From positions 1 through 29,068 of IMG/VR virus record IMGVR_UViG_3300025118_000100: a stretch of 29,068 nt of DNA. The stretch is one strand, 5' to 3'. The position numbers were made by a program, and so were the translations under genes. The stretch comes from a virus. Below are positions 1,396-17,976 of the stretch, piece after piece; the stretch's first letter is position 1, and each line of letters opens with the position of its first letter. The notes under the pieces were generated by a model, which ran no database searches, was not told where the DNA came from, and worked only from the letters and a program-made list of their open reading frames with translations.

Positions 1396-1644
1396 ATGGC
1401 CAAGAAACCAGTCAATGTATCAGTAAATTCAAATCAATGCCGCGGCAACCATGAGCGAATGATTCGAAGATTTATTAAAAAAACGAAGAAAGCAAAGATA
1501 ACGGAACAAGTAAGAGATCGCAGGCATTACAAAAAACCGTCTTTGAAAAAGAAAGAAAAAAGAGAAAGAGCAGCCCGCCGCCGCCGGCGCGATGAACAAA
1601 AGAGGCTTAAAGCTAATCAAAATCGTGATAGAAGAAAAAAGTGA
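1396..1644 (+). CDS. rpsU: Phage-encoded ribosomal protein bS21-like
   Basis: An 82-residue, extremely basic protein. From about residue 20 it follows the bS21 pattern: R-R-F at 24-26, a Lys-rich helix with K-A at 32-33, E-Q-V-R at 37-40, R-R-x-Y-x-K-P at 42-48, then a long Lys/Arg helix. Bacterial bS21 reads R-R-F-K-R...K-A-G...E-V-R-R-R-x-x-Y-E-K-P in the same order and has a similar length (about 70 aa). In bacteria bS21 sits on the 30S platform near the anti-Shine-Dalgarno end of 16S rRNA and helps initiation. Phage bS21 homologues are known, including in pelagiphage HTVC008M. The SD is AAGGAG five bases before the ATG. The alternative is a basic internal head protein, since it lies among prohead genes. 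The match is judged by eye. Confidence 0.75.
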   Translation: MAKKPVNVSVNSNQCRGNHERMIRRFIKKTKKAKITEQVRDRRHYKKPSLKKKEKRERAARRRRRDEQKRLKANQNRDRRKK

Positions 1645-1651
1645 CTATTTA
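1644..1651 (+). promoter_or_regulatory. Candidate late promoter motif ACTATTTA
   Basis: Exact copy of the octamer that recurs in the leaders of this window. Its first base is the last base of the bS21-like stop codon, and 30 bases separate it from the ATG at 1682. The same 30-base gap and a similar TAGGAGTT SD are seen before the scaffold gene at 6840. The promoter role is inferred from recurrence and position. Confidence 0.5.
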
Positions 1652-1681
1652 TAATGATAGTTAAAAATTAGGAGTTTTATA

Positions 1682-2107
1682 ATGGCGAATAATGCTTGGA
1701 ACATGAGAGTAGGCATAAATAATGTTGGTTCCTATCAAGTTAGCGGCAAGCCGTGGGCTAGCGGCAGTATCAATGCTCTTCACGGCCATCGCCCGGGCGG
1801 ACACGAGATTCAGTTTCCGTACGTAGCAAAATGGTTTAAAGTAATTAATAATGATGAGACAAATATTTGCAAGGTAGCCTTTTCTGTTTCTGGTATGACG
1901 GGTTCAAGCAATTTTTTTACGGTTGATGCAGCAGACTTCGACGCGTTTGGCGCGGGAAACAGCGGTGTACTAGATTTGAAAGTGTCTTCCATATGGATTT
2001 CGGGCTCTACCGATGTTGATGTGGTCGCCGGCCTGACCAGCATTGAATCAATAAGCACGCGAACCGATGTTGGTGCGAACTGGTCAGGATCTTCAGGGGT
2101 AGGATAA
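1682..2107 (+). CDS. Small virion structural protein, beta-rich
   Basis: A 141-residue protein rich in Gly, Ser, Val and Asn, without signal peptide or membrane segment. It looks like a single beta-sandwich domain: Y-Q-V-S-G-K-P-W-A-S-G-S near the N-terminus, I-Q-F-P-Y-V-A-K-W in the middle, and L-K-V-S-S-I-W-I-S-G-S followed by V-D-V-V-A-G-L-T towards the C-terminus. Such compact repetitive-strand proteins are typical of head decoration or fibre accessory proteins, but I do not recognise a named family. The SD AGGAG lies seven bases before the start. It opens the block of fibre-like genes between the prohead genes and the capsid gene, behind its own candidate promoter. Only a gap of four bases separates it from the next gene. 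Confidence 0.7.
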   Translation: MANNAWNMRVGINNVGSYQVSGKPWASGSINALHGHRPGGHEIQFPYVAKWFKVINNDETNICKVAFSVSGMTGSSNFFTVDAADFDAFGAGNSGVLDLKVSSIWISGSTDVDVVAGLTSIESISTRTDVGANWSGSSGVG

Positions 2108-2111
2108 GCCC

Positions 2112-2804
2112 ATGGCAAAGTTTGGCTGGGCGTACGTAGACTGCGACGCGGGACATATAACCGGTTCGGGACCAACCGGATCGATACAGTTTGTAACCGG
2201 GGGCGATGGATATACCACGGGCTCCTATCATCTGATGTTCCATACGGCATCCTATGAGGCGCATGCCGCCAATAGCCTGATTCTTTCCGGAAACATGGTG
2301 ATCACAGGCACCTTGAGCGCTAGCGCGCTTCACTATCGCGACATCACCCACATAGACGCCACAGGATCTACTTTCTTTGGTGACACTATTGACGACATTC
2401 ATTCGCGCACAGGCAGCCTTGAAATCTGGTCAGGCACCACACCCATTTTGACATCAAGCACATATAGCCAGCAAACGTTTGTTAAAGGTTTCGGTGGTGG
2501 TTATTTCAATGTTACTAGCGCTCACCATACCGCTTCAACGTCGGACTATGTTTTAGGAATCAATGCAACCATCACGGCACCTACCAATATTTATGTGACA
2601 ATCCCCAATCCTGCAATGTTCTCTGCTGGCGCAATTCTTGTGGTTAAAGACGAAGTGACAACCCCGCGCGGCCTTTCCAATATCACACTTACACGCTCGG
2701 TCACCGATACGTATACATTTGACGGTGATGCATACTACATTCTTACTGGTACGATGCCGGCAATTAGTTTATATTCCAACGGTACTAACTGGTTCGTCTT
2801 CTAA
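2112..2804 (+). CDS. Fibre-like structural protein with shared C-terminal domain (copy A)
   Basis: A 230-residue Gly/Ser/Thr-rich protein. An N-terminal segment contains G-P-T-G-S-I-Q-F followed by D-G-x-x-T-G-S and F, which is also present in the protein at 2827 (G-P-x-x-S-I-Q-F). The last 80 residues form a domain shared with three neighbouring proteins: S-D-Y-V-L-G-I-N, then I-P-N-P-A, V-V-K-D-E, N-I-T-L, F-D-G, and a final L-Y-S-N-G-T-N-W-F-V-F. Endings of the type D-G-T-N-W are common at the tips of phage fibres. No catalytic residues or membrane segments were seen. Whether it is a tail fibre, head fibre or decoration protein is not decidable from sequence. The upstream gene ends four bases before the start. 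Confidence 0.7.
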   Translation: MAKFGWAYVDCDAGHITGSGPTGSIQFVTGGDGYTTGSYHLMFHTASYEAHAANSLILSGNMVITGTLSASALHYRDITHIDATGSTFFGDTIDDIHSRTGSLEIWSGTTPILTSSTYSQQTFVKGFGGGYFNVTSAHHTASTSDYVLGINATITAPTNIYVTIPNPAMFSAGAILVVKDEVTTPRGLSNITLTRSVTDTYTFDGDAYYILTGTMPAISLYSNGTNWFVF

Positions 2805-2826
2805 TTAAACTTAGGAGAACCGCAGA

Positions 2827-3642
2827 ATGTCCTATAACAATATGTCGGGCACCGTTTTCATGCCCGCGGAGTTTTTGACACGCCCGGACACACTTGTCCC
2901 CACGATTCTTTCGGGAAACTTAGGCACATCTGATGCAGCAGGCGTTATAAATGTGCCCCGCGTCTCTAACGCCACCAATAATGCCATCCTTACAAACGTT
3001 GGCGGCGATGCTAATGCTCTCGTATGTGAAAGTAATCTTACTTTTGATGGAGACGCCTTAAACATCATAGGGAATCTTACGGCCTCAACGGGAGCATCCC
3101 TGCAGGGGCCCCTCCACATATCAGCCAGCACGGCTATGCGGGTCACAGGTTCTGCATATTTTAGCACATCTGTATCGGCATCGAGTTTTTATGGCGATGG
3201 CAGCCACTTGGTCAACGTTAGAGCAGATCACGTTGTGGCCGAGGGTCCTCAATATTCAATTCAATTTCATGATTCTGTCGACGGCGATCTTACTGGGTCG
3301 GCAACGTTTTTGTTTGAAGCGGATATTTTAAAACTTGGCGGAGGTCTCAAACTAAACCGTACCAGCATCACTTCAACCTATACTGCATCGGCCACCGATT
3401 ATTATATTGGAATTGACTCAACGGGTGGTACGATTTCTCTCCAGCTTCCAAGTGCGGCAGCCCTGTCCGACGGACAAACATACGTTGTAAAGGACGAAGG
3501 CGGCACCGCCAACTCAAATAACATTACAATTGTTGCATCCGGCTCGCAAACTATCGATGGTCAAAATCAAGTAGTTTTGATGTCTCCTTACGCATCTCTC
3601 CAGCTTTATTGTGACGGGTCCAATAAATTCTTTATTTGCTGA
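2827..3642 (+). CDS. Fibre-like structural protein with shared C-terminal domain (copy B)
   Basis: A 271-residue protein with three recognisable parts. The N-terminal part contains N-L-T-F-D-G-D-A-L-N, a motif also present in the protein at 5649 (N-L-L-F-D-G-D-T-L-H). The middle has F-Y-G-D-G-S-H-L and the G-P-x-x-S-I-Q-F segment shared with the protein at 2112. The C-terminal 80 residues are the common tip domain: D-Y-Y-I-G-I-D-S, L-P-S-A-A, Y-V-V-K-D-E-G, N-I-T-I, S-Q-T-I-D-G and Y-C-D-G-S-N-K-F-F. The SQTIDG block is nearly identical to that of the protein at 3784. SD AGGAG lies nine bases before the ATG. This mosaic of shared blocks indicates duplication and reshuffling within the cassette. 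The receptor or partner is unknown. Confidence 0.7.
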   Translation: MSYNNMSGTVFMPAEFLTRPDTLVPTILSGNLGTSDAAGVINVPRVSNATNNAILTNVGGDANALVCESNLTFDGDALNIIGNLTASTGASLQGPLHISASTAMRVTGSAYFSTSVSASSFYGDGSHLVNVRADHVVAEGPQYSIQFHDSVDGDLTGSATFLFEADILKLGGGLKLNRTSITSTYTASATDYYIGIDSTGGTISLQLPSAAALSDGQTYVVKDEGGTANSNNITIVASGSQTIDGQNQVVLMSPYASLQLYCDGSNKFFIC

Positions 3643-3662
3643 TTTTAAAGGCGCCTCAAGTT

Positions 3663-3670
3663 ACTATTTA
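3663..3670 (+). promoter_or_regulatory. Candidate late promoter motif ACTATTTA
   Basis: Exact copy of the recurrent octamer, 20 bases after the stop at 3642. It lies 113 bases before the start at 3784, the longest leader of the set, and the leader contains the hairpin at 3674-3743. Role inferred. Confidence 0.45.
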
Positions 3671-3673
3671 AGA

Positions 3674-3743
3674 GCAGGTGGACGCTGTAGGTCTCTGGCT
3701 TTTACGCTGGGCGGTGAATATTCGTGCATATAAGCCCACCTGC
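3674..3743 (+). other. Long-range hairpin in the leader of the 584-aa fibre gene
   Basis: GCAGGTGG at 3674-3681 is the exact complement of CCACCTGC at 3736-3743, enclosing 54 bases that hold a direct repeat of ACGCTG. The right arm is followed by an A-rich, not T-rich, run, so it is not an intrinsic terminator on the + strand. It lies in the transcribed leader if the motif at 3663 is a promoter. It may stabilise or regulate the mRNA; function unknown. Confidence 0.35.
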
Positions 3744-3783
3744 CAAAAAAAATAAAAACTAATAATATGGAGGGTTTTAATAA

Positions 3784-5538
3784 ATGGCTTATAAATTTCA
3801 AATGTCCGATGCTATCCTGAGTGGTACCATCGCCCCGCAAAACGATAACTCTTTCGACCTTGGTGTCGAAGGCGCTGAGTGGAAAGATCTTCGTTTTGAC
3901 GGCACAGCATACGCTGGCAATTATTCTGGTTCTGGTACTGTTTACTGTGCCGGCGCTGCTACGTTTAGTAGCACTCTTGCAGTCACTGGCGCAATGTCTT
4001 CAGCTGCTGCTATTACTGCTGGTACCTCATTCATCATCGGTTCCGCTGATCTCAACGAGACTGATATGGAAAAACTTGACGGTATCACTGATGGTACCGC
4101 CGCGGCCAACAAATGTCTGGTCGCTGACGGAAACGTCGATGTTGCGGGCCTTCGCAACCTAACCGCCACAGGCGCCGTCACAGCCGGCTCCTCATTCATC
4201 ATTGGCTCTGCCGATCTGAATGAAACCGACTTGGAGAAGCTTGACGGTATCACTGATGGTTCAGTCGCCGCTAACAAGGCGGTTGTTGTTGACTCAAACA
4301 AAGACATCACCGGCCTTCGCCACGTGACTGCCACAGGTGGTATCACTGCCGGCGTATCGTTCATCATTGGCTCTGCCGATCTGAATGAAACCGACTTGGA
4401 GAAGCTTGACGGTATCACTGATGGTACTGGCGCTGCTAACAAGTGCCTTGTCCTAGACGGCAGCCGCGACGTTGATACAATCAACGCTCTCGGTATCGCC
4501 AGCATGGCCAACAACTGGACCAACGCTGGTCGCACTGTCGCCGACATGGGTATTCTTACCACTGTCGACATTAACGGCGGTACGGCTGATGGTGTTGTGA
4601 TCGGTGGCGCTTCGGCAGCCGCTGGTACTTTCACCACTTTGGTTGCAGGCGGAAACGTCGACCTTGGTGATGCCACAAGCGATACCATTACAGCTACTGG
4701 TCGCTTCGACTCGGACCTCGTCCCGTCAAGTGATTCCGCTCGCGACTTGGGTACCAGTGCACTTCAGTGGGCAGCGCTTCACTGTGATGCTGGTTATGTC
4801 GATGCTATGACTGTAAGTGGCCACTCTGCATTGCAGAGTGTCACCGCTACCTCATTCAGTGGCTCTTCCACACTTCAAGCTGTTGGTAACAGCTTCCTTG
4901 GTGGCAACCTTGCTGTCTCTGGTACTGTTAAGCTGGAGGGTGTTGCTGATACTGCCGCATCACTCGGCTCTGACTCTTTCTACTTCCTTGATACCGACGG
5001 TCTCATGAAGAGAGAGTCAATGGTTGATTATGCTGCTTCTGCTGCTGGCGACGGCCTCTCTGCGGCTTCGGGTGTCTTTGCGCTCGATCTTAACGAGTTG
5101 ACCGCTGCTGCAGTTGACGTTGCTAACGATAGCATTGCTATTGTTGACGCCAATGATAGTAACGGCTCTAAGAAGGAAAGCATTGCTGACCTTGTTTCTG
5201 CTATGGCTGGTACCGGTCTTACCGCTACCAATGGTGTTCTTTCATCTGACGCGTCCCCGGCGCCGACGAACCACGGAGACTCCGCGGGCACTCTTGCCGA
5301 GGGTATGAACTTCAGTTCAGCCATCTTCAGTGCTGCTCGTATTTGGACGCTCCCAGCGTCCCCGGACGCAGGCGACACTGTTTCGGTCAAGGCGCCAGCT
5401 AACGCTAGCACCTACGAGCTTACCATTTTACGCGCTGGTTCCCAAACCATCGATGGTGAAACACAAGTTGTTATCATGTCTGATAGCGGCGCTGTTGAGT
5501 TCGTCTACCTTGGTGGAGACAAGTGGGCTATCAAGTAA
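3784..5538 (+). CDS. Large repeat-containing fibre-like virion protein
   Basis: A 584-residue Ala/Gly/Ser/Thr/Asp-rich protein with very low Cys and no hydrophobic segment. The N-terminus reads D-N-S-F-D-L-G, which recurs near residue 318 as D-S-A-R-D-L-G-T, a strand-turn module common in phage fibres. Residues 80-236 contain three tandem 55-residue repeats built on F-I-I-G-S-A-D-L-N-E-T-D and E-K-L-D-G-I-T-D-G; such L-N-x-L-D-G repeats occur in long trimeric fibre proteins of aquatic phages. The C-terminal 70 residues are the tip domain shared with the neighbours (S-Q-T-I-D-G, then Y-L-G-G-D-K-W). Codons favour GGT, GCT, CTT and ACT, as in the capsid gene and unlike the flanking fibre genes, suggesting high expression. 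GGAGG precedes the ATG by nine bases, and a strong terminator follows. It may be an abundant head or tail fibre. Confidence 0.75.
   Translation: MAYKFQMSDAILSGTIAPQNDNSFDLGVEGAEWKDLRFDGTAYAGNYSGSGTVYCAGAATFSSTLAVTGAMSSAAAITAGTSFIIGSADLNETDMEKLDGITDGTAAANKCLVADGNVDVAGLRNLTATGAVTAGSSFIIGSADLNETDLEKLDGITDGSVAANKAVVVDSNKDITGLRHVTATGGITAGVSFIIGSADLNETDLEKLDGITDGTGAANKCLVLDGSRDVDTINALGIASMANNWTNAGRTVADMGILTTVDINGGTADGVVIGGASAAAGTFTTLVAGGNVDLGDATSDTITATGRFDSDLVPSSDSARDLGTSALQWAALHCDAGYVDAMTVSGHSALQSVTATSFSGSSTLQAVGNSFLGGNLAVSGTVKLEGVADTAASLGSDSFYFLDTDGLMKRESMVDYAASAAGDGLSAASGVFALDLNELTAAAVDVANDSIAIVDANDSNGSKKESIADLVSAMAGTGLTATNGVLSSDASPAPTNHGDSAGTLAEGMNFSSAIFSAARIWTLPASPDAGDTVSVKAPANASTYELTILRAGSQTIDGETQVVIMSDSGAVEFVYLGGDKWAIK
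4021..4491 (+). repeat. Three in-frame 165-bp tandem repeats
   Basis: Units begin at 4021, 4186 and 4351, an exact 165-base (55-codon) period; the third unit diverges after about 47 codons. Units 2 and 3 are identical over 66 bases (4195-4260 and 4360-4425), whereas unit 1 encodes almost the same residues with many synonymous changes. This suggests a recent duplication or gene conversion between units 2 and 3. The repeats lie inside a coding region and conserve frame. Confidence 0.9.
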
Positions 5539-5578
5539 GATAACCTTAAAGAAATTGAAAACTTTGTTTTCATTTCTT

Positions 5579-5612
5579 GGATGCCTCTCTTTTGGGAGGC
5601 ATCCTTTTTTTT
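5579..5612 (+). terminator. Intrinsic terminator after the 584-aa fibre gene
   Basis: A perfect 9-bp stem, GGATGCCTC at 5579-5587 and GAGGCATCC at 5596-5604, with an 8-base loop, is followed by eight T residues. It lies 41 bases after the stop codon and isolates this gene from the one at 5649. Confidence 0.93.
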
Positions 5613-5614
5613 GT

Positions 5615-5622
5615 ACTACTTA
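5615..5622 (+). promoter_or_regulatory. Candidate late promoter motif, variant ACTACTTA
   Basis: One-base variant of the recurrent octamer, three bases beyond the T run of the terminator and 26 bases before the ATG at 5649. The identical variant follows the capsid terminator at 9998. Role inferred. Confidence 0.4.
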
Positions 5623-5648
5623 AAAGAGAACAAAGGAGAATAGGTGGT

Positions 5649-6776
5649 ATGGCATATAATGTCTTAAAGGGAACAGTTGAAGGATCTGTGGATCAGCATG
5701 CAGATCAGGAGATTGGAGGCATAAAAGTTTTTAAAAACACAATTAGCGCTAGTGTCTTTTATGATACGGACGCACAGAGCCCATGCGCAACCATGAAAGA
5801 CGTCGCAATTACTGAAGTCAAAGGCGGCCGCCCCACTTCGGTGCTAACATATATGGGCGATAAAACGGCCGTCGCCAATCGTAATTTGTTGTTTGACGGA
5901 GACACGCTACATGTTAAAAACATCGCCGCAAATACAATCGGTGGGGACGCTAGCGGTCTTGTCCGGGTTCCATCAGATCGCTTTATTGGGCCGATCGGCG
6001 CAGACTTCGTTAATCACGGAGTTGGTTTGCAAAATGTTAGAAATCAATTGCAGGTAAAAGTAGGAAATGGGATGATTGTTGACGATGAGGGCTTAAGTGT
6101 TTCAGTGGGTCTTTGCGGTGCCATCTCTATTAATTCCAACGTGCTGTGCGTGGATCCGGCCAAGAGCGATCCGATTAATGCCCAAGGTCAAAATTTGAGT
6201 GATGATGATCTGCTGTTGGTTGCGGATACTTCTTTGGGCGACGTCCGACATACCACACTAATAAATTTTTACGAAAATCACATTAAAACTAAAATCCCCA
6301 CCTCGGCTGGCAGCCCGGGCCATATTCAGCTAAAAGCAAATAATGGATTTGTGTCCACTCCAAAACTATCTTTTGATGCCGCCAAGAGTGCCCTAGTGGT
6401 GGAGGGCACAACCTCAACAGTAAACTTGAATATTGAAAAAGCTTTAAATTCTAATGGCGCGGTGAGTTATAATATAAAAACAACCAAAGACGCAAGCTAC
6501 GAAGTACAAGCTTCTGATTACACTATTCTATGCAATTCTTTTGAAAATCCTGTATCAGTAATCCTTCCGCCGGCCTGCAATAATAAAGGCCGGGTGATCA
6601 TTGTGAAGAAAACAAACACAGATAAGTATAACTTAAAATCCCACCCGGTGACGTTGATGGTAAGCGAGGGAACCATAGACCTAACCGACATTTTAACAAT
6701 AAAAATGAATTATTCATCCAGAACGGTGCAGTCAGACGGAACGAATTGGTGGATAATTGGGACAAAGGGTACTTAA
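5649..6776 (+). CDS. Fibre-like structural protein with shared C-terminal domain (copy D)
   Basis: A 375-residue protein. The start at 5649 is preferred because GGAG lies ten bases upstream; an in-frame ATG at 5577 would run through the terminator. The N-terminus (G-T-V-E-G-S-V-D-Q-H-A-D) is distinct from its neighbours. Residues near 80 carry N-L-L-F-D-G-D-T-L-H, shared with the protein at 2827. The central part contains G-N-G-M-I-V-D-D-E-G-L and a V-C-G-A-I/N-S-N-V-L type turn series typical of fibre shafts. The last 80 residues are the common tip domain in its most divergent form: S-D-Y-T-I-L, L-P-P-A, V-I-I-V-K-K, and Q-S-D-G-T-N-W-W-I-I-G. Codon choice is less biased than in the 584-aa protein. 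The exact place in the virion is unknown. Confidence 0.7.
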   Translation: MAYNVLKGTVEGSVDQHADQEIGGIKVFKNTISASVFYDTDAQSPCATMKDVAITEVKGGRPTSVLTYMGDKTAVANRNLLFDGDTLHVKNIAANTIGGDASGLVRVPSDRFIGPIGADFVNHGVGLQNVRNQLQVKVGNGMIVDDEGLSVSVGLCGAISINSNVLCVDPAKSDPINAQGQNLSDDDLLLVADTSLGDVRHTTLINFYENHIKTKIPTSAGSPGHIQLKANNGFVSTPKLSFDAAKSALVVEGTTSTVNLNIEKALNSNGAVSYNIKTTKDASYEVQASDYTILCNSFENPVSVILPPACNNKGRVIIVKKTNTDKYNLKSHPVTLMVSEGTIDLTDILTIKMNYSSRTVQSDGTNWWIIGTKGT

Positions 6777-6801
6777 TAAACGGCCTTTACCTCAAAATAA
6801 C

Positions 6802-6809
6802 ACTATTTA
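6802..6809 (+). promoter_or_regulatory. Candidate late promoter motif ACTATTTA
   Basis: Exact copy of the octamer, 30 bases before the scaffold ATG, followed by a TAGGAGTT SD as in the leader at 1644. It would start the scaffold-capsid transcription unit ending at 9911. Role inferred. Confidence 0.5.
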
Positions 6810-6839
6810 TTTTGAATTACTATCATTTAGGAGTTATTT

Positions 6840-8012
6840 ATGTCTGATATGCTTTCTGAGGCCATTGTTGATGCAAAGGCACTGCGCGCGACCGCATTAA
6901 AAAATGCCGAGAATATTGTTATAGAAAAGTATTCTACCGAAGTTAAGAAAACCTTGGAGACAATCCTGGAACAAGAAGAAGGTGTGCTAGCTCCCGATTT
7001 GGAAGGGGCCCCACTCGACGACGCGCCACTACCTGAGCCCGATTTCGACGCGCCGGAGGACACATTCGGCGAACCAGAAGCTGAAGAGGAAATTGTCGAA
7101 GGTGACGATATTCCCCTGGCTGCCACTATCGGGCTATCAGACATGACCGGTACAAACTTGAGCGATGTACCCTCAGAGAGCACAGAAACTGAAGTCACCA
7201 TCGATCTTGGCGCTCTCCAAGAAGCAGTGAAAGCGCTTGGCGACGATTTAGATGAGGAAATCGAAATTACCGAAGAAGACATTGTTGATATTCTTTCGGA
7301 AGACGACGAAGAACTTGAAGAAGCTGCAGACGGCGGCCCAGTTGCCGATGCCGCTTACACTGATGCGGAAGACGAAGATGACACCGCCCTTAAAACATCG
7401 GCGGCTACCAATCAGGATGCCACGTCCGGATATGGCGGAACTGACGAAAGCCTCGATTCTCTCGTAGATTCCATCCTCGAAAAACTTACCGTCGATATGG
7501 GCGCAGAATTGTCCGGCTGGGCCGGCCGCCCCACATCACAACTCAAGCACGAGCAAGAAAGGGCGTTAGCCGGTGCTCAGACCGATGATGTAAAAGAAGA
7601 TTTAGAAGATTTGAACAAAGCTCAAGAAGAGTTGGTTGCAGAAAATAATCAACTCAAAGAGCACAATGAACAATATAAGCAAGCATTTAATGAGCTAAGG
7701 GGGAATTTACAAGAAGTGAATCTTTCCAATGCTCGCTTGCTTTATACGAACCGAGTATTGAGAAATACCTCCCTAAATGAGCGGCAAAAAGATAAAATTG
7801 CCGAAGCTATTTCCAGCGCTGGTTCAGTAGCAGAAGCAAGAACGATCTATGAAACGCTTCAAAGCACAGTGGAGGCCGCTCCAAGGAAAAGCCCACAATC
7901 ACTGAGCGAGGCAATTGGTCGTCGGTCTACTGTGTTACGGGCTACTCGTCAAGAGGTGCCTTCAAATGATCCGTTTCAGGATCGTATGAAAAGATTAGCT
8001 GGAATAAAATAA
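6840..8012 (+). CDS. gp22: Prohead core scaffold protein, gp22-like
   Basis: A 390-residue, very acidic protein directly upstream of the capsid gene, the position of T4 gene 22. The N-terminal 45 residues are helical. Residues 50-200 are disordered-looking and rich in Glu, Asp, Ala and Pro. Residues 250-300 form a predicted coiled coil (E-D-L-N-K-A-Q-E-E-L, then N-N-Q-L-K-E-H-N). Next comes a conserved-looking helical block with N-A-R-L-L-Y-T-N-R-V-L-R-N and L-N-E-R-Q-K-D-K-I. The C-terminus is basic. In T4 such proteins form the core on which the shell assembles and are then degraded by gp21. Sites fitting the T4 protease rule (Leu or Ile, any, Glu) include L-S-E at residues 5-7 and again near residue 355. 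It is longer than T4 gp22 (269 aa). The assignment rests on composition, coiled coil and position. Confidence 0.75.
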   Translation: MSDMLSEAIVDAKALRATALKNAENIVIEKYSTEVKKTLETILEQEEGVLAPDLEGAPLDDAPLPEPDFDAPEDTFGEPEAEEEIVEGDDIPLAATIGLSDMTGTNLSDVPSESTETEVTIDLGALQEAVKALGDDLDEEIEITEEDIVDILSEDDEELEEAADGGPVADAAYTDAEDEDDTALKTSAATNQDATSGYGGTDESLDSLVDSILEKLTVDMGAELSGWAGRPTSQLKHEQERALAGAQTDDVKEDLEDLNKAQEELVAENNQLKEHNEQYKQAFNELRGNLQEVNLSNARLLYTNRVLRNTSLNERQKDKIAEAISSAGSVAEARTIYETLQSTVEAAPRKSPQSLSEAIGRRSTVLRATRQEVPSNDPFQDRMKRLAGIK

Positions 8013-9880: not shown

Positions 9881-9911
9881 AAAAACCCCCCTGGTTTCAG
9901 GGGGGTTTTTT
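9881..9911 (+). terminator. Intrinsic terminator after the capsid gene
   Basis: CCCCCCTG at 9886-9893 pairs with CAGGGGGG at 9898-9905 around a GTTT loop. An A5 tract precedes the stem and six T residues follow, so it may act on both strands. It ends the scaffold-capsid unit. Confidence 0.95.
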
Positions 9912-9997
9912 GTTTTTTAAAGAAAAGTTAAAATTGTTGATTTGTCAAATTTTTTCCCTGGTAAATTTTTGAGATTTCCGTTTTTGTAATGTAGGAA

Positions 9998-10005
9998 ACT
10001 ACTTA
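9998..10005 (+). promoter_or_regulatory. Candidate late promoter motif, variant ACTACTTA
   Basis: Same one-base variant as at 5615, within the AT-rich spacer after the capsid terminator and 37 bases before the ATG at 10043. Role inferred. Confidence 0.4.
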
Positions 10006-10042: not shown

Positions 10043-10249
10043 ATGGGTAAGAAATGGAAACGCTTATTGATCGCAAGAAGGGCCGCGGCAGCAACCCCCG
10101 TGGAGGAAGTGGCAGAGGCGCCAGCCCCCAAGGCGGTAGAAAAGAAGGTTGATGTAGTCACACCCGCTCCCAAGACCGTTACAAAAACCAAGACGAGGGC
10201 CGTTAAAAAGGCCACCAAAACTAAGACCACAACTTCCCACAACTCATAA
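10043..10249 (+). CDS. Small basic Ala/Lys/Pro-rich protein
   Basis: A 68-residue protein. It starts with a basic helix (G-K-K-W-K-R-L-L-I-A-R-R-A-A-A). An acidic Glu/Ala/Pro linker follows, and the C-terminus is rich in Lys, Thr and Val with K-T-K-T-R-A-V-K-K-A-T-K-T-K, resembling histone H1-type tails. That composition suggests nucleic-acid binding, for instance in packaged DNA or in the prohead core, but no family is recognised. GGAG lies eight bases before the ATG. It has its own promoter candidate after the capsid terminator and is separated by 67 bases from the neck gene. Short length and low complexity make any database match hard to interpret. Confidence 0.6.
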   Translation: MGKKWKRLLIARRAAAATPVEEVAEAPAPKAVEKKVDVVTPAPKTVTKTKTRAVKKATKTKTTTSHNS

Positions 10250-10288
10250 ATAAACCATTCTTGAGTGGCGAGTTTTGTGGTTGTGTTT

Positions 10289-10296
10289 ACTATTTA
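10289..10296 (+). promoter_or_regulatory. Candidate late promoter motif ACTATTTA
   Basis: Exact copy of the octamer, 20 bases before the neck-gene ATG at 10317, the shortest spacing of the set. The SD GGAG lies between motif and start. Role inferred. Confidence 0.5.
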
Positions 10297-10316: not shown

Positions 10317-11591
10317 ATGCCGACCAATCTTAGCCCCAAATCACAAACAAACACAGTGGTCCTCACGTCCACAGGCAGCACAGATCTAGTATCAACAGGC
10401 CTGCCGTTTGGAATGTACACCGGCTCGGCCATGTTCCTCAGTGGCGCTTCCTCCCAAGTTGCATACGTCTATAAAAAGCTCGGTGGCGATGTCGTTGACA
10501 TCGAACTTACACCTTCGAATGTATACGCGGCGTATGAAGAGGCGGTCTTAGAGTATTCCTACATAGTTAACCTGCACCAAGGGAAGAACGTTCTTTCTAG
10601 TGTCCTAGGGAACACCACAGGAACGTTTGACCACCTAGGGGACTTGACTGATGGCCCCAGCTCGGTTAACCTGCGTTATCCTCGCTTTCAAGCAGCCTAT
10701 TCAAGAAAAGTGGGGGATACAATGATTTCTGTCGGCGGCCTAGGCGGCGCACTCCCTCAATATTCAGCGTCCTTTCAGCCGAAGTCAAAACGACAAGATT
10801 ATGATCTCCAGGAGATTATAGAAACAGCCTCTTCCAGCGGAGTTGATGACGGCGGGAACGCCGTGCCCTTTTCAGGGAAAGTGGGCACCAAAAGGGTTAT
10901 CATTACCCACGTCTTTTATAAGACCCCTCGTGCCATGTGGAGATTTTACGGATATTACGGCGGTATTGGGGTTGTGGGGAACATGAACACTTATGGTCAA
11001 TTCGCCGATGACTCGACATTTGAGCTTATTCCGACGTGGCAAAACAAAATGCAAGCAGTTATGTACGAAGATTCGCTATGGACGCGGACATCGCACTTTT
11101 CTTATGAAATTATTAATAACAAGCTTAGATTATATCCGGATCCTGGTTATTGGGACTTTTCCGATCTCAATCGCATATGGGTTAAGTTTTATGTTGATGA
11201 CCAGAATGCATGGGAAACTAATCCTGACTTTACTGATGGCACACAGGGCATAAATAACCTTAATACGCTGCCTTTCGATAACTTGCCGTATGAAAACATC
11301 AATTCAATGGGTAAGCAGTGGATCCGCAAATATTCCTTAGCCTTGTGCAAAGAGATGCTGGGGCAGATTCGAGGCAAGTTTACGACCATTCCGATTCCAG
11401 GCGAAAGTGTGACTTTAAATCATTCTGAATTGCTTTCTCAAGCAAAAGAAGAACAACAATCTCTAAAAGACAAGCTGCATGAAATGCTCAAAGAGGTTGA
11501 ATACAAGGAGCTTGTTAAGTACGATGCCGAAACATCAGATGCAGTAGCAACTACATTTAAGGGATCGCCTTTGCCGATTTTTGTGGGGTGA
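10317..11591 (+). CDS. gp13: Neck protein, gp13-like
   Basis: A 424-residue head-completion protein. The diagnostic part is the C-terminal third: I-N-S-M-G-K-Q-W-I-R-K-Y-S-L-A-L-C-K-E-M-L-G-Q, then R-G-K-F-x-T-I-P-I-P-G and L-L-S-Q-A-K-E-E-Q, which parallels the T4 gp13 end. The N-terminal part has L-T-P-S-N-V-Y-A-A-Y-E-E-A-V-L-E-Y, as in gp13 proteins of aquatic T4-like phages (from memory). T4 gp13 is 309 aa; the extra length is Gly/Ser-rich and lies between residues 100 and 190. In T4, gp13 with gp14 forms the neck that closes the portal and accepts the tail. The start at 10317 is used rather than the ATG at 10313, which is out of frame. The gene is followed after six bases by a gp14-like gene. 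Confidence 0.8.
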   Translation: MPTNLSPKSQTNTVVLTSTGSTDLVSTGLPFGMYTGSAMFLSGASSQVAYVYKKLGGDVVDIELTPSNVYAAYEEAVLEYSYIVNLHQGKNVLSSVLGNTTGTFDHLGDLTDGPSSVNLRYPRFQAAYSRKVGDTMISVGGLGGALPQYSASFQPKSKRQDYDLQEIIETASSSGVDDGGNAVPFSGKVGTKRVIITHVFYKTPRAMWRFYGYYGGIGVVGNMNTYGQFADDSTFELIPTWQNKMQAVMYEDSLWTRTSHFSYEIINNKLRLYPDPGYWDFSDLNRIWVKFYVDDQNAWETNPDFTDGTQGINNLNTLPFDNLPYENINSMGKQWIRKYSLALCKEMLGQIRGKFTTIPIPGESVTLNHSELLSQAKEEQQSLKDKLHEMLKEVEYKELVKYDAETSDAVATTFKGSPLPIFVG

Positions 11592-11597
11592 TAAGTA

Positions 11598-12086
11598 ATG
11601 TCTGATGAATGGAACCGGCCTACAAATCCACCACCTCCGCTATTTTTAGGAAAGAAAGAGCGTGACCTGGTCAAACAGGTTAATGACGAACTAATTGAAA
11701 AAGTCATTGGTCAACAGATCCTCTATTATCCTATAGACATGGAAACAACCGATTTTCACGATCTTTACGGCGAAGCCATAGAGAAGACGTACCTGGCCCC
11801 CATCCGGATATATGCTTTGGTGGAATTTACCGACTATTCAACGGAATACATGGAGAGTGCCGGAATTGACAAAACGTGGGAGATAAATGTTCATTTTCAC
11901 GAAAGGCGCCTCCAAGAAGATCAGAATATGTATGTGCGAGAGGGCGATTTTGTTCTATATGGTAGTTATTATTACGAGATCGTTAAATTGGTCGAATCTC
12001 GCAAGCTTTTTGGCCAAGTCGATTATGGGTTTGAAATTTCTGCAAGATGCAGAAGAGCAAGAAAGGGACTTTTTGATGCTACCTGA
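11598..12086 (+). CDS. gp14: Neck protein, gp14-like
   Basis: A 162-residue protein with a Pro-rich N-terminus (N-P-P-P-P-L-F) followed by a helix and a beta-rich body: I-L-Y-Y-P-I-D, L-Y-G-E-A, I-R-I-Y-A-L-V-E-F, then W-E-I-N-V-H-F-H and G-D-F-V-L-Y-G-S-Y-Y-Y-E-I-V. The Y-Y-P-I-D and L-Y-G-E-A blocks and the place right after gp13 fit the gp14 neck family, which binds the bottom of the head together with gp13. It is shorter than T4 gp14 (256 aa), so peripheral parts may be missing. The 3' end overlaps the next gene by 11 bases. The call is partly contextual. Confidence 0.65.
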   Translation: MSDEWNRPTNPPPPLFLGKKERDLVKQVNDELIEKVIGQQILYYPIDMETTDFHDLYGEAIEKTYLAPIRIYALVEFTDYSTEYMESAGIDKTWEINVHFHERRLQEDQNMYVREGDFVLYGSYYYEIVKLVESRKLFGQVDYGFEISARCRRARKGLFDAT

Positions 12087-13038: not shown

Positions 13039-13086
13039 CTCTAAAGAGCGCTTCCTGAGTTGAAAAGCTTATTATAGGTTTTCCTC

Positions 13087-13158
13087 ATGAACAGAAATGC
13101 ATATTCTACGTTTACTTCAGGACTTTTAGCGCCTTTTGAAATTAAAAATACTATTTAA
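13087..13158 (+). CDS. Possible 23-residue peptide in the sheath leader
   Basis: A short open frame reading M-N-R-N-A-Y-S-T-F-T-S-G and ending K-N-T-I, with a weak TAGG about eight bases upstream. Its stop codon lies inside the promoter-like motif at 13150. It could be chance; there is no homology evidence. Confidence 0.15.
   Translation: MNRNAYSTFTSGLLAPFEIKNTI
13150..13157 (+). promoter_or_regulatory. Candidate late promoter motif ACTATTTA
   Basis: Exact copy of the octamer in the 175-base gap before the sheath gene, 56 bases before its ATG. Apart from this motif, the SD and a possible tiny peptide, nothing else was seen in the gap. Role inferred. Confidence 0.5.
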
Positions 13159-13213
13159 GTTTGATGGCAAAAACGATCTACGTCATTTGTTTTAAGAAGG
13201 AAGGGAATTAATA

Positions 13214-16156
13214 ATGTCAGTAAAAGATTTTAAGTTCGTGTCTCCAGGGGTTTTTATTAACGAGATTGATAACTCGTTTATACCCAAATCGGCAGACACA
13301 ATCGGACCAGTTGTTATTGGTCGCGCTCAGCGCGGGATATCCATGCAGCCGGTAAAAGTTCAATCATATTCAGAGTTTGTTGAAGTGTTTGGCGATACGG
13401 TTCCGGGTGATGCCGGCGGCGATGTATACCGCGATTCTGTGGATCTTCAGTCCCCCATGTACGGTACATATGCAGCAAAGGCGTTCTTAAGATCAAACGT
13501 GGCGCCACTTACATATATTCGTTTGCTTGGACACGATTCCGATTCCGCCGATTCCACAGCCGGCTCTAAGGCCGGCTGGAAGACGGATAGCTTCCTTAGC
13601 ACCACAAACAGCGGCGGTGGAACGTTCGGCCTCTGGGTTGCACCTTCTGGCTCGAATGCCGTACTGAGCGCTCACGGTGGCGCCTGGGCATTTACTGGCA
13701 GTAACGCGTTCCAATTAGCTGCAGTCTTTTACAATGATAATGGCGGAATGGCTCTCGTAGGTAATACGTGGGGCAACGCCTCCGGAAGTGTGGCGCCAAA
13801 CGTCACTGACACAAAATCAAACGCAATGATCCTCTCCGATGCAAACGGCACCTTCACCGCACAAATCAGCGGCAGCACGGGCGCCACTGAAAAGATCACC
13901 TTTTCGATGAATGATAATTCGGAAGATTATATCCGTCGGAAGTTCAGCACTAACCCAATGTTGCGCCGCGGCGGCGATTTTTACACCAACGAGAAGGATT
14001 GGTGGCTTGGCGAGACTTTTGATCAAGAGATCAGAGATGCCGGCCTTAACTCTGGCCAGCTTGTGGGTGTCATCTTAGGCATTCAGCTTCAGGGTGGATC
14101 CGATGATGAGGGCCCCGGCAACATGTATGGCCAAGCTGCCCGCGAAGCGGTTGCGGGCTGGTTCATCGCTCAGAACGCCGGCGCCCCAACCGATTATGAA
14201 GCAGAGAACATGCAAAAGTTGTTCCGTCTGCATGGCCGCGGCCACGGCGAATGGCTGATGAAGCACTGTAAAGTTTCAATTGAAAAAATTCGTCCGTCGA
14301 GCACAACCACCAGCGAGTACGGCACATTTTCGGTGGTAATCAGAAGCATTAGCGACTCTGATAACGCTGTTCAAGTTATGGAGAGGTTTGACAATCTAAA
14401 TCTTAATCCTAATTCTCCAAATTATATTGGTTCCCAAATTGGTACTGAATATTATAGTTGGAGTGAAACCGACCGAAAGTTGATTTTAGAGGGCGATGGG
14501 CACCCTAACCGCTCTAAATTTATTCGTGTTGAGCTTTCTGATGTTGTCCGCGGAGGTGCACTGGAAAAAGCTACCTCGTTGCCCTTTGGCTATTACGCGC
14601 CTCCGAAGTTCTCGACCACGACACTCCGCGTATCGGTCACCGGCTCTCGCTCCGGAAATGCCAGCAAATATATTATTGCTGGTAGTCAGTTGCCTGATTT
14701 TGCTGGTAACGCCAGCTGCACCGCCATATCCTCATCTCAGGTACCGGCCGGCGCCGGCTTCGGTAGCGCATCGTTTGCGTTCCCGGAGGTAAGGTTGCGC
14801 AATTCAGCATCTGACGGCGGCCTTGTTAACTATCGCGATGCCTACTTTGGATTTCAGAATACCAGATCCAGCGGCAGCACAGTTGGCATGCCGGCTATTT
14901 GGCAGACCAACAGGCTTTGGTCGCAAACCGTAGGTGATGATCCCACCACTTCGACTGGCACTGGAATAGATGGGTTTAGCACTATCTTTTCTCTCGACGA
15001 TATTCTTACGGGAAGCAGCACCACGGGGTTCTTCTATCGGTCGGGTTCTCACAAGAACGGCCTTTCCGTAAGCGGACAGACAGGCAGCGCGTCTACCTAC
15101 AAGACGCTGTTGGATCTTGGCGTTGATCGCTTTACTGCTCCATTCTGGGGAGCAAGTGATGGACTAAACATCCGTGTTCCGGATCCCATGTACAATGCTG
15201 CAATGAGCGAGTTATCTGACAATGACAATAGCTATATTTACTACACATGGCGACGCGCAATTGATTCGATTGCCGACCCTGAGTTTGTTAACATGAATCT
15301 CTTGGCCGCGCCCGGCTTGGGTTTAAACTCCTTGACTGCTCATATGATCAACACTTGTGAAAATCGTGCTGATGCTATGGCTCTCATAGACCTGGAGGAT
15401 GCTTATAAGCCCCGCGCGGAAGGAAAGACGGGGATCACCAAAGAGTCCGATAGAGTTACTTACAACCCAACTCAACTTTCTAACAATCTTCGCGATCGTC
15501 GCATCGACTCGAGTTATGGCTGTACATTCTATCCGTGGGTTCAAACCCGTGATGAAAACACAGGTCAACTTGTTTGGATTCCGCCTACGGTAGCCATGAT
15601 GGGCGTTCTGGCAAGTTCCGAGCGCAAGTCAAAGATTTGGTTCGCTCCCGCGGGCTTTAACCGCGGCGGCTTGAGTGATGGCGCCGCAGGTATTCCGATT
15701 ACGCAAGTCACCACTCGACTTTCATCGAGGGACCGCGACACGCTGTACAACGCGCGTATTAATCCGATTGCTTCATTCCCCTCCACCGGAATTGTGGTCT
15801 TCGGACAGAAAACGCTTCAAGAGCGTCAATCCGCCCTTGATAGAATTAACGTTAGAAGGTTGGTCATCTACCTTAAGAAGCAGATTTCCATCCTATCCAC
15901 CCAGATTCTGTTTGAGCAAAATGTTCAAGCAACTTGGAATCGATTCAAGGGACTCATCGATCCGTTCTTGGCGAACGTGACTACCGAGTATGGTATCACA
16001 GATTATCGCCTGATCCTTGATGAATCTACCACCACGGCCGACCTCATTGATCAGAACATTATGTATGCCAAGATCATGATCAAGCCAGCCCGCGCCATCG
16101 AATTCATTGCGATTGACTTCGTAATTGCTTCAACCGGCGCATCTTTTGATGATTAA
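13214..16156 (+). CDS. gp18: Tail sheath protein, gp18-like (enlarged)
   Basis: A 980-residue contractile sheath subunit. The conserved N-terminal segment is V-S-P-G-V-F-I-N-E-I-D-N-S, then G-P-V-V-I-G-R-A-Q-R-G and S-Y-S-E-F-V-E-V-F-G. The C-terminal core is also typical: N-L-L-A-A-P-G-L, Y-P-W-V-Q-T-R-D, W-I-P-P-T-V-A-M-M-G, K-I-W-F-A-P-A-G-F-N-R-G, G-I-V-V-F-G-Q-K-T-L, N-V-R-R-L-V-I-Y-L-K-K, and an end with K-P-A-R-A-I-E-F-I-A-I-D-F. These two regions bracket about 550 residues rich in Gly, Ser and Asn (roughly residues 110-650), probably surface-exposed insertion domains. T4 gp18 is 659 aa. Sheath subunits surround the tube and drive contraction. SD AAGGAAGGGAA precedes the ATG. The tube gene follows after 51 bases. 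Confidence 0.93.
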   Translation: MSVKDFKFVSPGVFINEIDNSFIPKSADTIGPVVIGRAQRGISMQPVKVQSYSEFVEVFGDTVPGDAGGDVYRDSVDLQSPMYGTYAAKAFLRSNVAPLTYIRLLGHDSDSADSTAGSKAGWKTDSFLSTTNSGGGTFGLWVAPSGSNAVLSAHGGAWAFTGSNAFQLAAVFYNDNGGMALVGNTWGNASGSVAPNVTDTKSNAMILSDANGTFTAQISGSTGATEKITFSMNDNSEDYIRRKFSTNPMLRRGGDFYTNEKDWWLGETFDQEIRDAGLNSGQLVGVILGIQLQGGSDDEGPGNMYGQAAREAVAGWFIAQNAGAPTDYEAENMQKLFRLHGRGHGEWLMKHCKVSIEKIRPSSTTTSEYGTFSVVIRSISDSDNAVQVMERFDNLNLNPNSPNYIGSQIGTEYYSWSETDRKLILEGDGHPNRSKFIRVELSDVVRGGALEKATSLPFGYYAPPKFSTTTLRVSVTGSRSGNASKYIIAGSQLPDFAGNASCTAISSSQVPAGAGFGSASFAFPEVRLRNSASDGGLVNYRDAYFGFQNTRSSGSTVGMPAIWQTNRLWSQTVGDDPTTSTGTGIDGFSTIFSLDDILTGSSTTGFFYRSGSHKNGLSVSGQTGSASTYKTLLDLGVDRFTAPFWGASDGLNIRVPDPMYNAAMSELSDNDNSYIYYTWRRAIDSIADPEFVNMNLLAAPGLGLNSLTAHMINTCENRADAMALIDLEDAYKPRAEGKTGITKESDRVTYNPTQLSNNLRDRRIDSSYGCTFYPWVQTRDENTGQLVWIPPTVAMMGVLASSERKSKIWFAPAGFNRGGLSDGAAGIPITQVTTRLSSRDRDTLYNARINPIASFPSTGIVVFGQKTLQERQSALDRINVRRLVIYLKKQISILSTQILFEQNVQATWNRFKGLIDPFLANVTTEYGITDYRLILDESTTTADLIDQNIMYAKIMIKPARAIEFIAIDFVIASTGASFDD

Positions 16157-16168
16157 TAATAGATAGAT

Positions 16169-16176
16169 ACTAATTA
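16169..16176 (+). promoter_or_regulatory. Candidate late promoter motif, variant ACTAATTA
   Basis: One-base variant of the octamer, 31 bases before the tube ATG at 16208 and with an AAAGGAG SD downstream, the same layout as at 1644 and 6802. It would allow extra transcription of the tube gene. Role inferred. Confidence 0.3.
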
Positions 16177-16207
16177 AAAGTAAGACACAAAAAGGAGTAC
16201 TTAACAA

Positions 16208-16813
16208 ATGCCATTCTGGTCAACAAATTTTTCCGAGCAAGGAGCCGAATACAAGGATCCAAAAAGAAAGTTTAGATTTCAAGTGCAGTTTCAGGGAATC
16301 AGCGCACAAATCGGAGGCGCCGCCGCTTGGTACGCCAAGACCGTAACAAAGCCGGCCTTCTCGATTGCGGCCGCAGAGCACAAATACCTTAACCACACGT
16401 TCTTTTATCCAGGATCTGTTACGTGGGAAGATGTTTCGCTAACGTTGGTCGACCCGGTCGAGCCCGACATGGCAGCAACGCTTTCAGACATTGTTCAACT
16501 TTCTGGATATAAGCCGCCCGTTACTTCGACTGAAGAAGGTAGCCTATCCACGATGTCCAAGGCCAAGGCCGCCGGCGCTCTGGGCGCAGTAACAATTGCC
16601 CAGTTGGATGCCAACGGCGCCCCCCTCGAAACCTGGACGCTTATGAACGCGTTTATCACCGAGCTTAAGTACGGCGACCTGGCTTACGGCGATGATGAAT
16701 TAACTGAAATGTCGCTCACTCTTAAGTATGATTGGGCTACGGTAAGTACGTCCGGCGGATCAGTAGCAGTTGGCGGCAACCAGGGATCCGAATTCTTTTC
16801 TATCAACAGCTAA
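16208..16813 (+). CDS. gp19: Tail tube protein, gp19-like
   Basis: A 201-residue subunit of the inner tail tube. Family features are an N-terminal P-K-R-K-F-R-F-Q-V-Q-F strand, W-Y-A-K-T-V-T-K-P-A-F then H-K-Y-L-N-H-T-F-F-Y-P-G, W-E-D-V-S-L-T-L-V-D-P, and a C-terminal W-T-L-M-N-A-F-I-T-E-L-K-Y-G-D-L-A-Y-G-D-D-E-L-type strand pair followed by Y-D-W-A. T4 gp19 is 163 aa; the extra residues are a small loop around residues 105-125 and a Ser/Gly-rich tail. The place directly after the sheath gene matches T4 (18 then 19). SD AAAGGAG lies upstream. Tube length is expected to be set by the tape measure at 18002. Confidence 0.92.
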   Translation: MPFWSTNFSEQGAEYKDPKRKFRFQVQFQGISAQIGGAAAWYAKTVTKPAFSIAAAEHKYLNHTFFYPGSVTWEDVSLTLVDPVEPDMAATLSDIVQLSGYKPPVTSTEEGSLSTMSKAKAAGALGAVTIAQLDANGAPLETWTLMNAFITELKYGDLAYGDDELTEMSLTLKYDWATVSTSGGSVAVGGNQGSEFFSINS

Positions 16814-16839
16814 CGACAATTTTTAAATAGAGGTGTATA

Positions 16840-17697
16840 TTGTCTAGAAACAAAAACCGCGTTGGGAGCAACAAAACCGCAGGAAGTGCCCCACCGCAAC
16901 ATGTCATGCAAAATCATGATGGAGGAGGTCTTTCCTTCGTAATACCGACAGAATTTGTCGATCTACCTTCAATGGGAAAGTTTTATCCCGAAGGTCATCC
17001 CCTGCACGCACAAGACAGCATTGAAATAAAGCAAATGACTGCGAAAGAAGAAGATATTCTCACGTCGCGCTCATTGCTTAAAAAGGGTGTTGCACTAGAC
17101 CGCGTCATCGAAAGCGTGATCATGAACAAGAGTGTGAATCCAAGCGATCTCCTCATTGGCGATCGAAACGCGATTATTGTTGCAACCCGAGTTTCCGGCT
17201 ATGGAAACGAGTATGCAACCAACGTCACGTGTCCAAATTGTGCACATACACAGAAGTATGAATTTGATTTGAATGAAAGTACTATCTATCATGGCGAGAA
17301 TGCTCAGGATTTGCAGATCACCGACCATGGCGACGGCACATTTTCGACCGTACTGCCACGCAGCAACTTTGATGTTAGATTTCGACTGCTGACCGGTCGC
17401 GACGAGAAAACCCTATCACAACAGGCCGAAAGTGGAAGAAAGTCCCGAGGCCTTGAAAAGAACATTACAACACAATTAAAGAATATGATTGTATCTATTA
17501 ATAACGAAGACAATAGACAAGTGATTGGTCAGGGGATTGAACTCCTGCCTTCTTTGGATGCTCGCCATTTGCGCACGGCCTACAAATTAGCCGCGCCAAA
17601 CATCGATCTGTCACAATATTTTGAGTGCGAAGAGTGCGGTCACGAAGAGACCATGGAGGTACCGCTTACAGCGGACTTTTTTTGGCCTGACCGATGA
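16840..17697 (+). CDS. Baseplate hub / tail assembly protein, gp26-like, with zinc ribbon
   Basis: A 285-residue protein starting at TTG (16840) with GAGGTG five bases upstream. After a basic, disordered N-terminus it reads F-V-I-P-T-E-F-V-D-L-P-S-M-G-K-F-Y-P, then M-T-A-K-E-E-D-I-L and D-R-V-I-E-S-V-I, a pattern I associate with T4 gp26-type proteins of aquatic myophages. Cys131-x-x-Cys134 and Cys263-x-x-Cys266 form a four-cysteine zinc ribbon, with the intervening 130 residues making a beta/helical domain. It ends next to a run of seven T residues and just before the short gene at 17702, directly upstream of the tape measure. That is the place of tail-assembly chaperones (lambda G/GT, P2 E/E'), so it may be a tape-measure chaperone rather than a hub subunit. 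Confidence 0.7.
   Translation: MSRNKNRVGSNKTAGSAPPQHVMQNHDGGGLSFVIPTEFVDLPSMGKFYPEGHPLHAQDSIEIKQMTAKEEDILTSRSLLKKGVALDRVIESVIMNKSVNPSDLLIGDRNAIIVATRVSGYGNEYATNVTCPNCAHTQKYEFDLNESTIYHGENAQDLQITDHGDGTFSTVLPRSNFDVRFRLLTGRDEKTLSQQAESGRKSRGLEKNITTQLKNMIVSINNEDNRQVIGQGIELLPSLDARHLRTAYKLAAPNIDLSQYFECEECGHEETMEVPLTADFFWPDR
17677..17683 (+). other. T7 run, candidate +1/-2 frameshift site
   Basis: In the gp26-like frame the codons are GAC TTT TTT TGG and the stop TGA follows at 17695. The frame of the downstream gene is +1 relative to this one and is open across the run. A Phe tRNA can re-pair with TTT after a +1 or -2 slip. A -1 slip would meet TGA at 17688. Confidence 0.4.
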
Positions 17698-17701
17698 TTA
17701 C

Positions 17702-17935
17702 ATGCACAATGTGTATGAACAATTCTTTTTCTTAAAATATTCAGGCGGATGGAGCTTTTCCGAATCTTATAATTTGCCGGTGGGCCTCCGCACCTGGTTC
17801 GTGGAACGCCTTATTCAACAGATAGAGACTGAAAACGAAGCGGCCACCCAAGCCTCCAAGGGCGGCGGGAAGGCTCAAGCTTTAAGTGCCCACAACCAGC
17901 CCCCCACCCCGGCCACATTTTCAAAGAAATACTAA
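17702..17935 (+). CDS. Short tail-assembly partner, possible frameshift extension
   Basis: From the ATG at 17702 this is a 77-residue protein. It has an aromatic helical core (Y-E-Q-F-F-F-L-K-Y-S-G-G-W-S-F, then Y-N-L-P-V-G-L-R-x-W-F-V-E-R-L) and an Ala/Gly/Gln-rich tail. The core is convincing as a real folded protein, and I recall similar short proteins next to gp26 in aquatic myophages. No SD precedes this ATG; the previous stop ends four bases before it. Expression must therefore rely on coupling, or on frameshifting at 17677-17683, which would append G-L-T-D-D-Y and this segment to the gp26-like protein. Being the last gene before the tape measure, it matches the T or E' partner of lambda- and P2-type chaperone pairs. 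The function is inferred from context. Confidence 0.65.
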   Translation: MHNVYEQFFFLKYSGGWSFSESYNLPVGLRTWFVERLIQQIETENEAATQASKGGGKAQALSAHNQPPTPATFSKKY

Positions 17936-17945
17936 TCAAATTCAC

Positions 17946-17976
17946 TAAATAGTCTTTTTCGATAGCAAACTATTTA
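17946..17976 (+). promoter_or_regulatory. Inverted pair of the promoter-like octamer (TAAATAGT / ACTATTTA)
   Basis: TAAATAGT at 17946-17953 is the reverse complement of ACTATTTA at 17969-17976, with 15 bases between. The right copy lies 25 bases before the tape-measure GTG and matches the other promoter candidates. The pair could form an 8-bp AT-rich hairpin, or be two motif copies in opposite orientation. Role inferred. Confidence 0.45.

Follow-up and report, generated by a model that had tools for sequence, protein, structure and literature searches.

In phage T4, gp55 reads the -10 word of late promoters that have no conserved -35 element, and the flap-bound gp33 is a DNA-blind mimic of sigma domain 4, the pair having been called a split sigma (PMC2988020). 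In the Far-T4 phages, Roux et al. did not find the T4 transcription regulators in 2015, expected a different transcription and left its control open (PMC4360716); neither that study nor PMC7198788 mentions a promoter or a sigma factor. The stretch of DNA analysed here, referred to as the window, is the entire IMG/VR record IMGVR_UViG_3300025118_000100, a fragment of 29,068 bp, and the element in question is the octamer ACTATTTA, which recurs in its leaders and which the initial annotation, made from the sequence alone, took for the phage's own late promoter. With a probability of about 0.8, ACTATTTA is the -10-like half of a bipartite late promoter in a large, mostly marine, uncultured T4-superfamily ('Far-T4'-like) clade. 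The octamer noted initially is thus one half of the element, a second block lying upstream.

Six exact copies of ACTATTTA are found on the + strand of the window, at 1644–1651, 3663–3670, 6802–6809, 10289–10296, 13150–13157 and 17969–17976, together with three + strand variants, ACTACTTA at 5615–5622 and 9998–10005 and ACTAATTA at 16169–16176. All nine are intergenic, the first overlapping the stop codon of the preceding open reading frame (ORF) by one base. By position they precede a structural gene at 1682, genes at 3784 and 5649, the scaffold-like gene at 6840 (followed by the capsid gene at 8045), a gene at 10043, the head-tail adaptor-like gene at 10317, the tail sheath gene at 13214, the tail tube gene at 16208 and the tape-measure-like gene at 18002, and the distances from motif end to start codon are 30, 113, 26, 30, 37, 20, 56, 31 and 25 nt, respectively. 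Counted on both strands, exact copies number 7 as against 0.68 expected from 100 dinucleotide shuffles (standard deviation 0.85; maximum 4), while ACTAHTTA occurs 10 times with 1.98 expected. Matches with one mismatch amount to 32 versus 21.8 expected, a figure reached by 3 of 100 shuffles, and these looser matches were dropped; since their count is only mildly above chance, the signal sits in the specific octamer. On recount the nine coordinates of the initial annotation are all correct, as are its placing of the sites in + strand leaders between genes, its spacing of 20–56 bases for eight of the nine (113 nt in the other), its lack of exact copies inside genes of the window (0 coding copies) and its claim of an excess over chance. 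Its site list held every exact + strand copy and missed one exact copy on the - strand, and the non-coding DNA that it put at roughly 1.5 kb comes to somewhat less, about 1.1 kb by the present gene list. The missed copy, at 17946–17953 (- strand), lies 15 bp from the + copy at 17969, the inverted pair (17946–17976) standing ahead of the tape-measure gene in an arrangement unlike the other sites, with no gene behind the - copy. The only long leader, the 113 nt between the 3663 site and its gene, holds an 8-bp inverted repeat (GCAGGTGG at 3674–3681 and CCACCTGC at 3736–3743) and is thus structured.

The nearest named relatives of the window's capsid protein are Microcystis phage Mel-JY01, the Flavobacterium immuto phages, the uncultured 484-kb phage LR756508 and Rhodothermus RM378, a neighbourhood that is the group called Far-T4; in the capsid protein search, closer relatives are metagenome contigs only. 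Two sets of relatives were assembled, 80 contigs found by the capsid protein and 80 contigs fetched with a different protein; these contigs are fragments, and related sequences among them are not fully independent. Genes were called with a simple script, a crude caller that takes the longest ORFs and refines starts by Shine-Dalgarno, and all leader 8-mers were counted in the capsid-selected set. There ACTATTTA is the commonest word, present in 210 of 493 leaders and in 75 of the 80 contigs, and ACTAATTA and ACTACTTA also rank high. Across the window and these relatives (about 984 kb, 61 kb of it non-coding), non-coding copies of ACTATTTA number 241 forward and 1 reverse, and coding forward copies 27. 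Thus neither gene interiors nor the opposite strand equal the forward leaders in density, and errors in gene calling are an unlikely source of this asymmetry. Applied to T4 as a positive control, the leader-word method yields the T4 late word TATAAATA, which occurs in 3 of the 493 clade leaders and agrees with ACTATTTA at 4 of 8 positions, so that the two words differ as initially annotated. Cyanophage P-HM2 was unusable as a control, with one TATAAATA site by the present caller. Read in reverse, ACTATTTA becomes TAAATAGT, in one copy lengthened to TATAAATAGT; a T4 promoter in the backward orientation was rejected, since the motif keeps strictly to the coding strand. Searching the literature for the octamer word gave unrelated matches only.

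Alignment of 229 sites reveals a second block at -20 to -12 from the first base of the octamer, composed of G, G, C or G, any base, and four T. The block is present at 5/7 positions or better in 63% of 132 non-redundant sites as compared with 6% in the background, and in a permutation test the observed value was 4.39 versus a mean of 2.08 (standard deviation 0.10). It persists once similar sequences and all sites preceded by a hairpin are taken out, and both halves were replicated in the second set of contigs. A purine peak follows at +13/+14, about 6 nt past the octamer; taken as the start site, it would put the octamer at about -13 to -6, the place of the T4 late -10 word, and the block at about -33 to -26. 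In the window the block accompanies the sites at 6802 (GGCCTTTA, 6782–6789, 6/7), 9998 (CCGTTTTT, 9978–9985, 5/7), 10289 (CGAGTTTT, 10269–10276, 5/7) and 13150 (CGCCTTTT, 13130–13137, 6/7), all on the + strand, and partly the site at 17969 (4/7 when shifted by 1). Its G-rich and T-rich make-up could be the mere tail of intrinsic terminators, leaving a -10-only promoter as in T4, given that some sites follow terminators and that GGGGTTTT and GGGGCTTT are common leader words. This cause was rejected through the hairpin-free subset, as the block is as frequent without an upstream hairpin (65% versus 62%); its locking to one position and its lack in T4, immuto, Mel-JY01 and LR756508 make a terminator origin very improbable.

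Two of the window sites come after intrinsic terminators on the + strand, one at 5579–5604 (11-bp stem and T tail), which ends 10 nt before the 5615 site, and one behind the capsid gene at 9881–9910 (13-bp stem and T tail), and this placement was counted for the promoter reading. The octamer lies a median of 33 nt from the start codon, a nearness that would also suit an RNA leader element serving processing, stability or translation in place of a promoter. Such a role is hardly credible beside the 5th–95th percentile range of 19–112 nt, the second block at fixed spacing, the sites directly behind terminators and the separation of late from early genes. For the latter, the first genes after ACTA(T/C/A)TTA (90) and after non-coding TTGAC(A/T)-N15-19-TAnnnT (72 scanned) were compared in seven long contigs (G001–G004, G008–G010). 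Behind the octamer lie genes for head-tail adaptor (7), sheath (5), tube (3), baseplate, tail spike and virion proteins, along with PhoH and one primase, whereas the TTGACA-type promoters precede genes for Hsp20, GroEL, DnaB helicase, DNA polymerase, SbcCD, single-strand binding protein and exonuclease, along with one head maturation protease. Late and early classes of promoter would produce such a split, and the element is very probably a late promoter, as first proposed, the motif standing ahead of virion genes and not of replication genes. As a separate observation, TTGACA...TAnnnT ahead of early-type genes suggests that the host has an ordinary sigma70 and is not one of the Bacteroidota, as that of immuto is.

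A host sigma factor could in principle read the octamer as a variant -10 element with no phage factor involved; immuto and Mel-JY01, phages of very different hosts, share a TATTTA core. The recurrence of that core in phages of both Flavobacterium and Microcystis nevertheless speaks for a factor of the phages themselves, TTGACA promoters serve other genes of the clade, and a standard sigma70 scan of the window (TTGACA and TATAAT hexamers) gives 22 matches versus 23.6 expected, i.e. chance level, so that a host promoter is improbable.

A candidate phage factor is encoded by the long relatives. PHROG 234, the T4 late sigma family, matches a 248-codon frame in the 185-kb contig G001, and the encoded gp55-like protein has clear relatives in immuto, Mel-JY01 and LR756508 as well as in G008, G009 and G010, and is encoded in at least 488 IMG/VR stretches. 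Among 46 such relatives, 35 match PHROG 234 (E up to 0.001, best 4e-9; single-member E values are modest) and no other family. The predicted structure (predicted local distance difference test score, pLDDT, 81) aligns almost solely with sigma factors, and superposition on region 2 of sigma-E bound to its -10 strand gives a Z score of 9.3 and a root-mean-square deviation of 2.7 over 91 residues. The PF04542 region 2 model gave no match in the clade, although the gp55 family model did, and T4 gp55 as a single query was without success. The sigma of RM378 was rejected as a direct counterpart, phmmer giving no clear homologue in the long relatives. One gp55-like match (G009:71996–72673, locus L215) carries an in-frame TAG, which may reflect a frameshift, a sequencing error or recoding. 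The distinct late sigma suggested by the initial annotation is thus supported by a gp55-family late sigma in the long relatives, and the octamer is probably opened by this protein.

The second candidate is a protein of about 80 amino acids with conserved cysteines and a region-4 helix-turn-helix, present in 22 of 28 clade contigs, in 6 of 7 gp55-selected contigs of at least 145 kb and in at least 560 IMG/VR stretches. Its score exceeds the PF04545 gathering threshold (24.1 bits) in all five longest capsid-selected contigs, reaching 36.9 bits in G003, and its profile matches sigma70 domain 4 structures in the PDB. With the small model Foldseek gave at best a weak match (E 1.1), so the region-4 assignment is carried by the sequence profile and not by the fold search. 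The open frames span 84–126 codons without a region 2, and so are not part of a full sigma factor. In the second helix SFVRVKQIQ aligns with TRERIRQIE of sigma70, in which R584 and E585 serve to read TTGACA; these residues are replaced in the region-4 protein, which would fit another target. Within 6 kb upstream of the sigma genes examined, both types included, the late motif was found for 0 of 14, and TTGAC-type promoters lie 1.4–5.4 kb upstream of 4 of 10 region-4 genes; a lack of the late motif is expected if these proteins are made before the late phase.

As reader of the block, the stand-alone protein is supported chiefly by the fact that the two occur together. The block is found in 43–57% of sites in G001, G008, G009 and G010, all with the region-4 protein. 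In contrast, it is at the level of the background (4–8%) in T4 (11% of sites), immuto (10%), Mel-JY01 (11%) and LR756508 (12%, with only 8 sites in the stretch taken), and no region-4 protein was found in any of these four. G029 (210 kb; gp55 49% identical; region-4 protein not found at E 0.01) has only 3 ACTATTTA sites and decides nothing. On balance, we favour the region-4 protein as the putative reader of the upstream block.

Several points weigh against this picture. The window, being a fragment, holds neither sigma gene, both being known from relatives, and the standing of ACTATTTA as a promoter is itself deduced from sequence. Two of the six exact window sites (1644 and 3663) are without the upstream block, that at 3663 being the weakest case, and its lack at 1644 may be because that stretch falls inside the S21-like ORF; the major capsid protein gene (8045) lacks its own motif. 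In G030, G033 and G035, region-4 bearers of greater divergence, the block is weak (15–40% of sites), and the comparison of phages carrying the region-4 protein with those lacking it draws on few independent lineages. Lastly, the gp55-like protein ends in a helix-turn-helix-like pair of helices (188–199 and 203–226) that could read the block. The late promoter would then stand, but the block would be read by this C-terminal domain, in the manner of a two-domain sigma of the extracytoplasmic function type, or by another activator, with the region-4 protein doing otherwise. Several whole sigma factors do align across residues 14–223 of the gp55-like model, its C-terminal tail is highly conserved in the clade, and the sigma of RM378 is an ordinary one that contains both region 2 and region 4. 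However, immuto, Mel-JY01 and LR756508 carry the same C-terminal domain and yet show no GG-TTTT block, profile comparison of this domain with the region-4 family gave nothing, and the stand-alone protein is a clear region 4 by the Pfam cut-off; reading by the gp55-like C-terminus or another activator is therefore rather unlikely.

Both sigma genes have small neighbours. In the 80 loci examined (L129–L208), a protein of about 108 amino acids overlaps or abuts the region-4 gene upstream, mostly by 4 bases, and in 74 of the 80 it bears an IFDILE-like acidic-hydrophobic tail. Such tails number 6 among 711 C-termini of four genomes, three being the partner itself. Similarly, downstream of the gp55-like gene, 75 of 80 loci (L277–L356; looser pattern) encode a protein of about 96 amino acids that has a tail of this sort, LFDLI; behind the gp55-like genes of immuto, Mel-JY01 and LR756508 this protein was not seen. 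Neither partner gave anything convincing in PHROGs, and that of the region-4 gene is also without a Pfam match. T4 gp55 ends in SLDFLYEAND, and the T4 frame that we take to be gp33 in TLDFLL. Both ends are of the clamp-binding kind described in review. No SLDFLYE-like motif, a short one, is visible by eye in the C-termini of the clade gp55-like proteins, similar tails being carried by the neighbouring small proteins. As to the clamp-type factor that the initial annotation offered as an alternative to a distinct late sigma, the T4-type clamp model PF02916 found none in G001, G008, G009 and G010, and the same model barely detects the P-HM2 clamp (E 0.012). A literature search for the RB69 polymerase clamp peptide found no paper. 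That the partner tails bind a clamp is speculation. In T4, dsbA overlaps gene 33 and is translationally coupled to it, and the resemblance of the coupled upstream ORF to this arrangement, together with the role proposed for the region-4 protein, suggests that the latter may be a counterpart of gp33.

Taken together, these elements would give the following sequence of events. Early genes, including those of both sigma parts, would be transcribed by the host RNA polymerase with a host TTGACA-type sigma. The gp55-like protein would then replace host sigma domain 2 and open ACTATTTA, while the small region-4 protein, seated on the beta flap at the site of T4 gp33, would read the GG-TTTT block, the outcome being a divided late sigma with both -10 and -35 contacts. 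A fuller version, which we put forward tentatively, has each half of the divided sigma tied to the replication clamp through its small co-encoded partner with an (L/I)FD(L/I)(I/L) tail, and the region-4 half in the seat of gp33 reading the -35-like element; T4, with its -10-only promoters and DNA-blind gp33, would stand at one end of a series along which the part that reads the -35 either dropped out or never joined. The bipartite element would provide a late promoter that can be read from the genomes of hundreds of uncultured marine phage contigs, and with it an early/late gene split without culture. If the split sigma is true, it would supply a -35-reading counterpart of T4 gp33 and make the origin of -10-only late promoters testable.

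The genes of the window are those of a T4-superfamily head and tail, namely prohead protease, an S21-like protein, major capsid protein, head-tail adaptor, sheath, tube, hub and tape measure. The phage-encoded gene resembling ribosomal protein S21 (1396–1644; PHROG 21469, E 6e-4) lies within the head cluster, and Mel-JY01 has one in the same place. Between it and the scaffold-like gene, four fibre-like genes stand in a row (2112–6776) with similar C-termini (...SQTIDG...WxI/F). Right after the structural genes comes a family-A DNA-polymerase-like gene (26981–28168, 395 amino acids); a similar gene opens the immuto record.

Among known systems, the Far-T4 phages resemble the clade in being uncultured aquatic T4-superfamily phages. 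RM378 differs in having a single sigma with regions 2 and 4, which was not found in the clade. Immuto and Mel-JY01 share a gp55-like protein with the same domains and have the leader words (A/C)TATTTATA and ATATTTAT with the common TATTTA core; they differ in lacking both the region-4 protein and the upstream block. The immuto leaders (L088–L091) hold a further repeated word, TATATTTAGGTA (TATATTTA in 23, ATATTTAG in 17 and TTTAGGTA in 17 leaders), which may be another promoter class. Bacillus SigO-RsoA is a sigma factor with its domains on two polypeptides (PMC10141391). As a cellular stress sigma it is likened to the clade by its two-protein design alone. In phage SPO1 two proteins, gp33 and gp34, act together in late transcription, at promoters that have both a -35 and a -10 part. 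SPO1 gp34 has been named as the late sigma (PMC9429907), and this phage, belonging to another group, is likened by description only. With T4 the clade shares a short AT-rich word in the -10 position ahead of late genes, a gp55-family sigma and a second small phage protein, in the clade putatively assigned to the flap. In contrast, the clade word is ACTATTTA where that of T4 is TATAAATA, a conserved -35-like block is present where T4 late promoters have none, and a true region-4 protein stands where T4 has the DNA-blind gp33. Thus virion genes lie behind the promoter as in T4, and the sigma system is T4-like in its working, yet the promoter departs from two defining features of T4 late promoters, the TATAAATA word and the absence of a -35 element.

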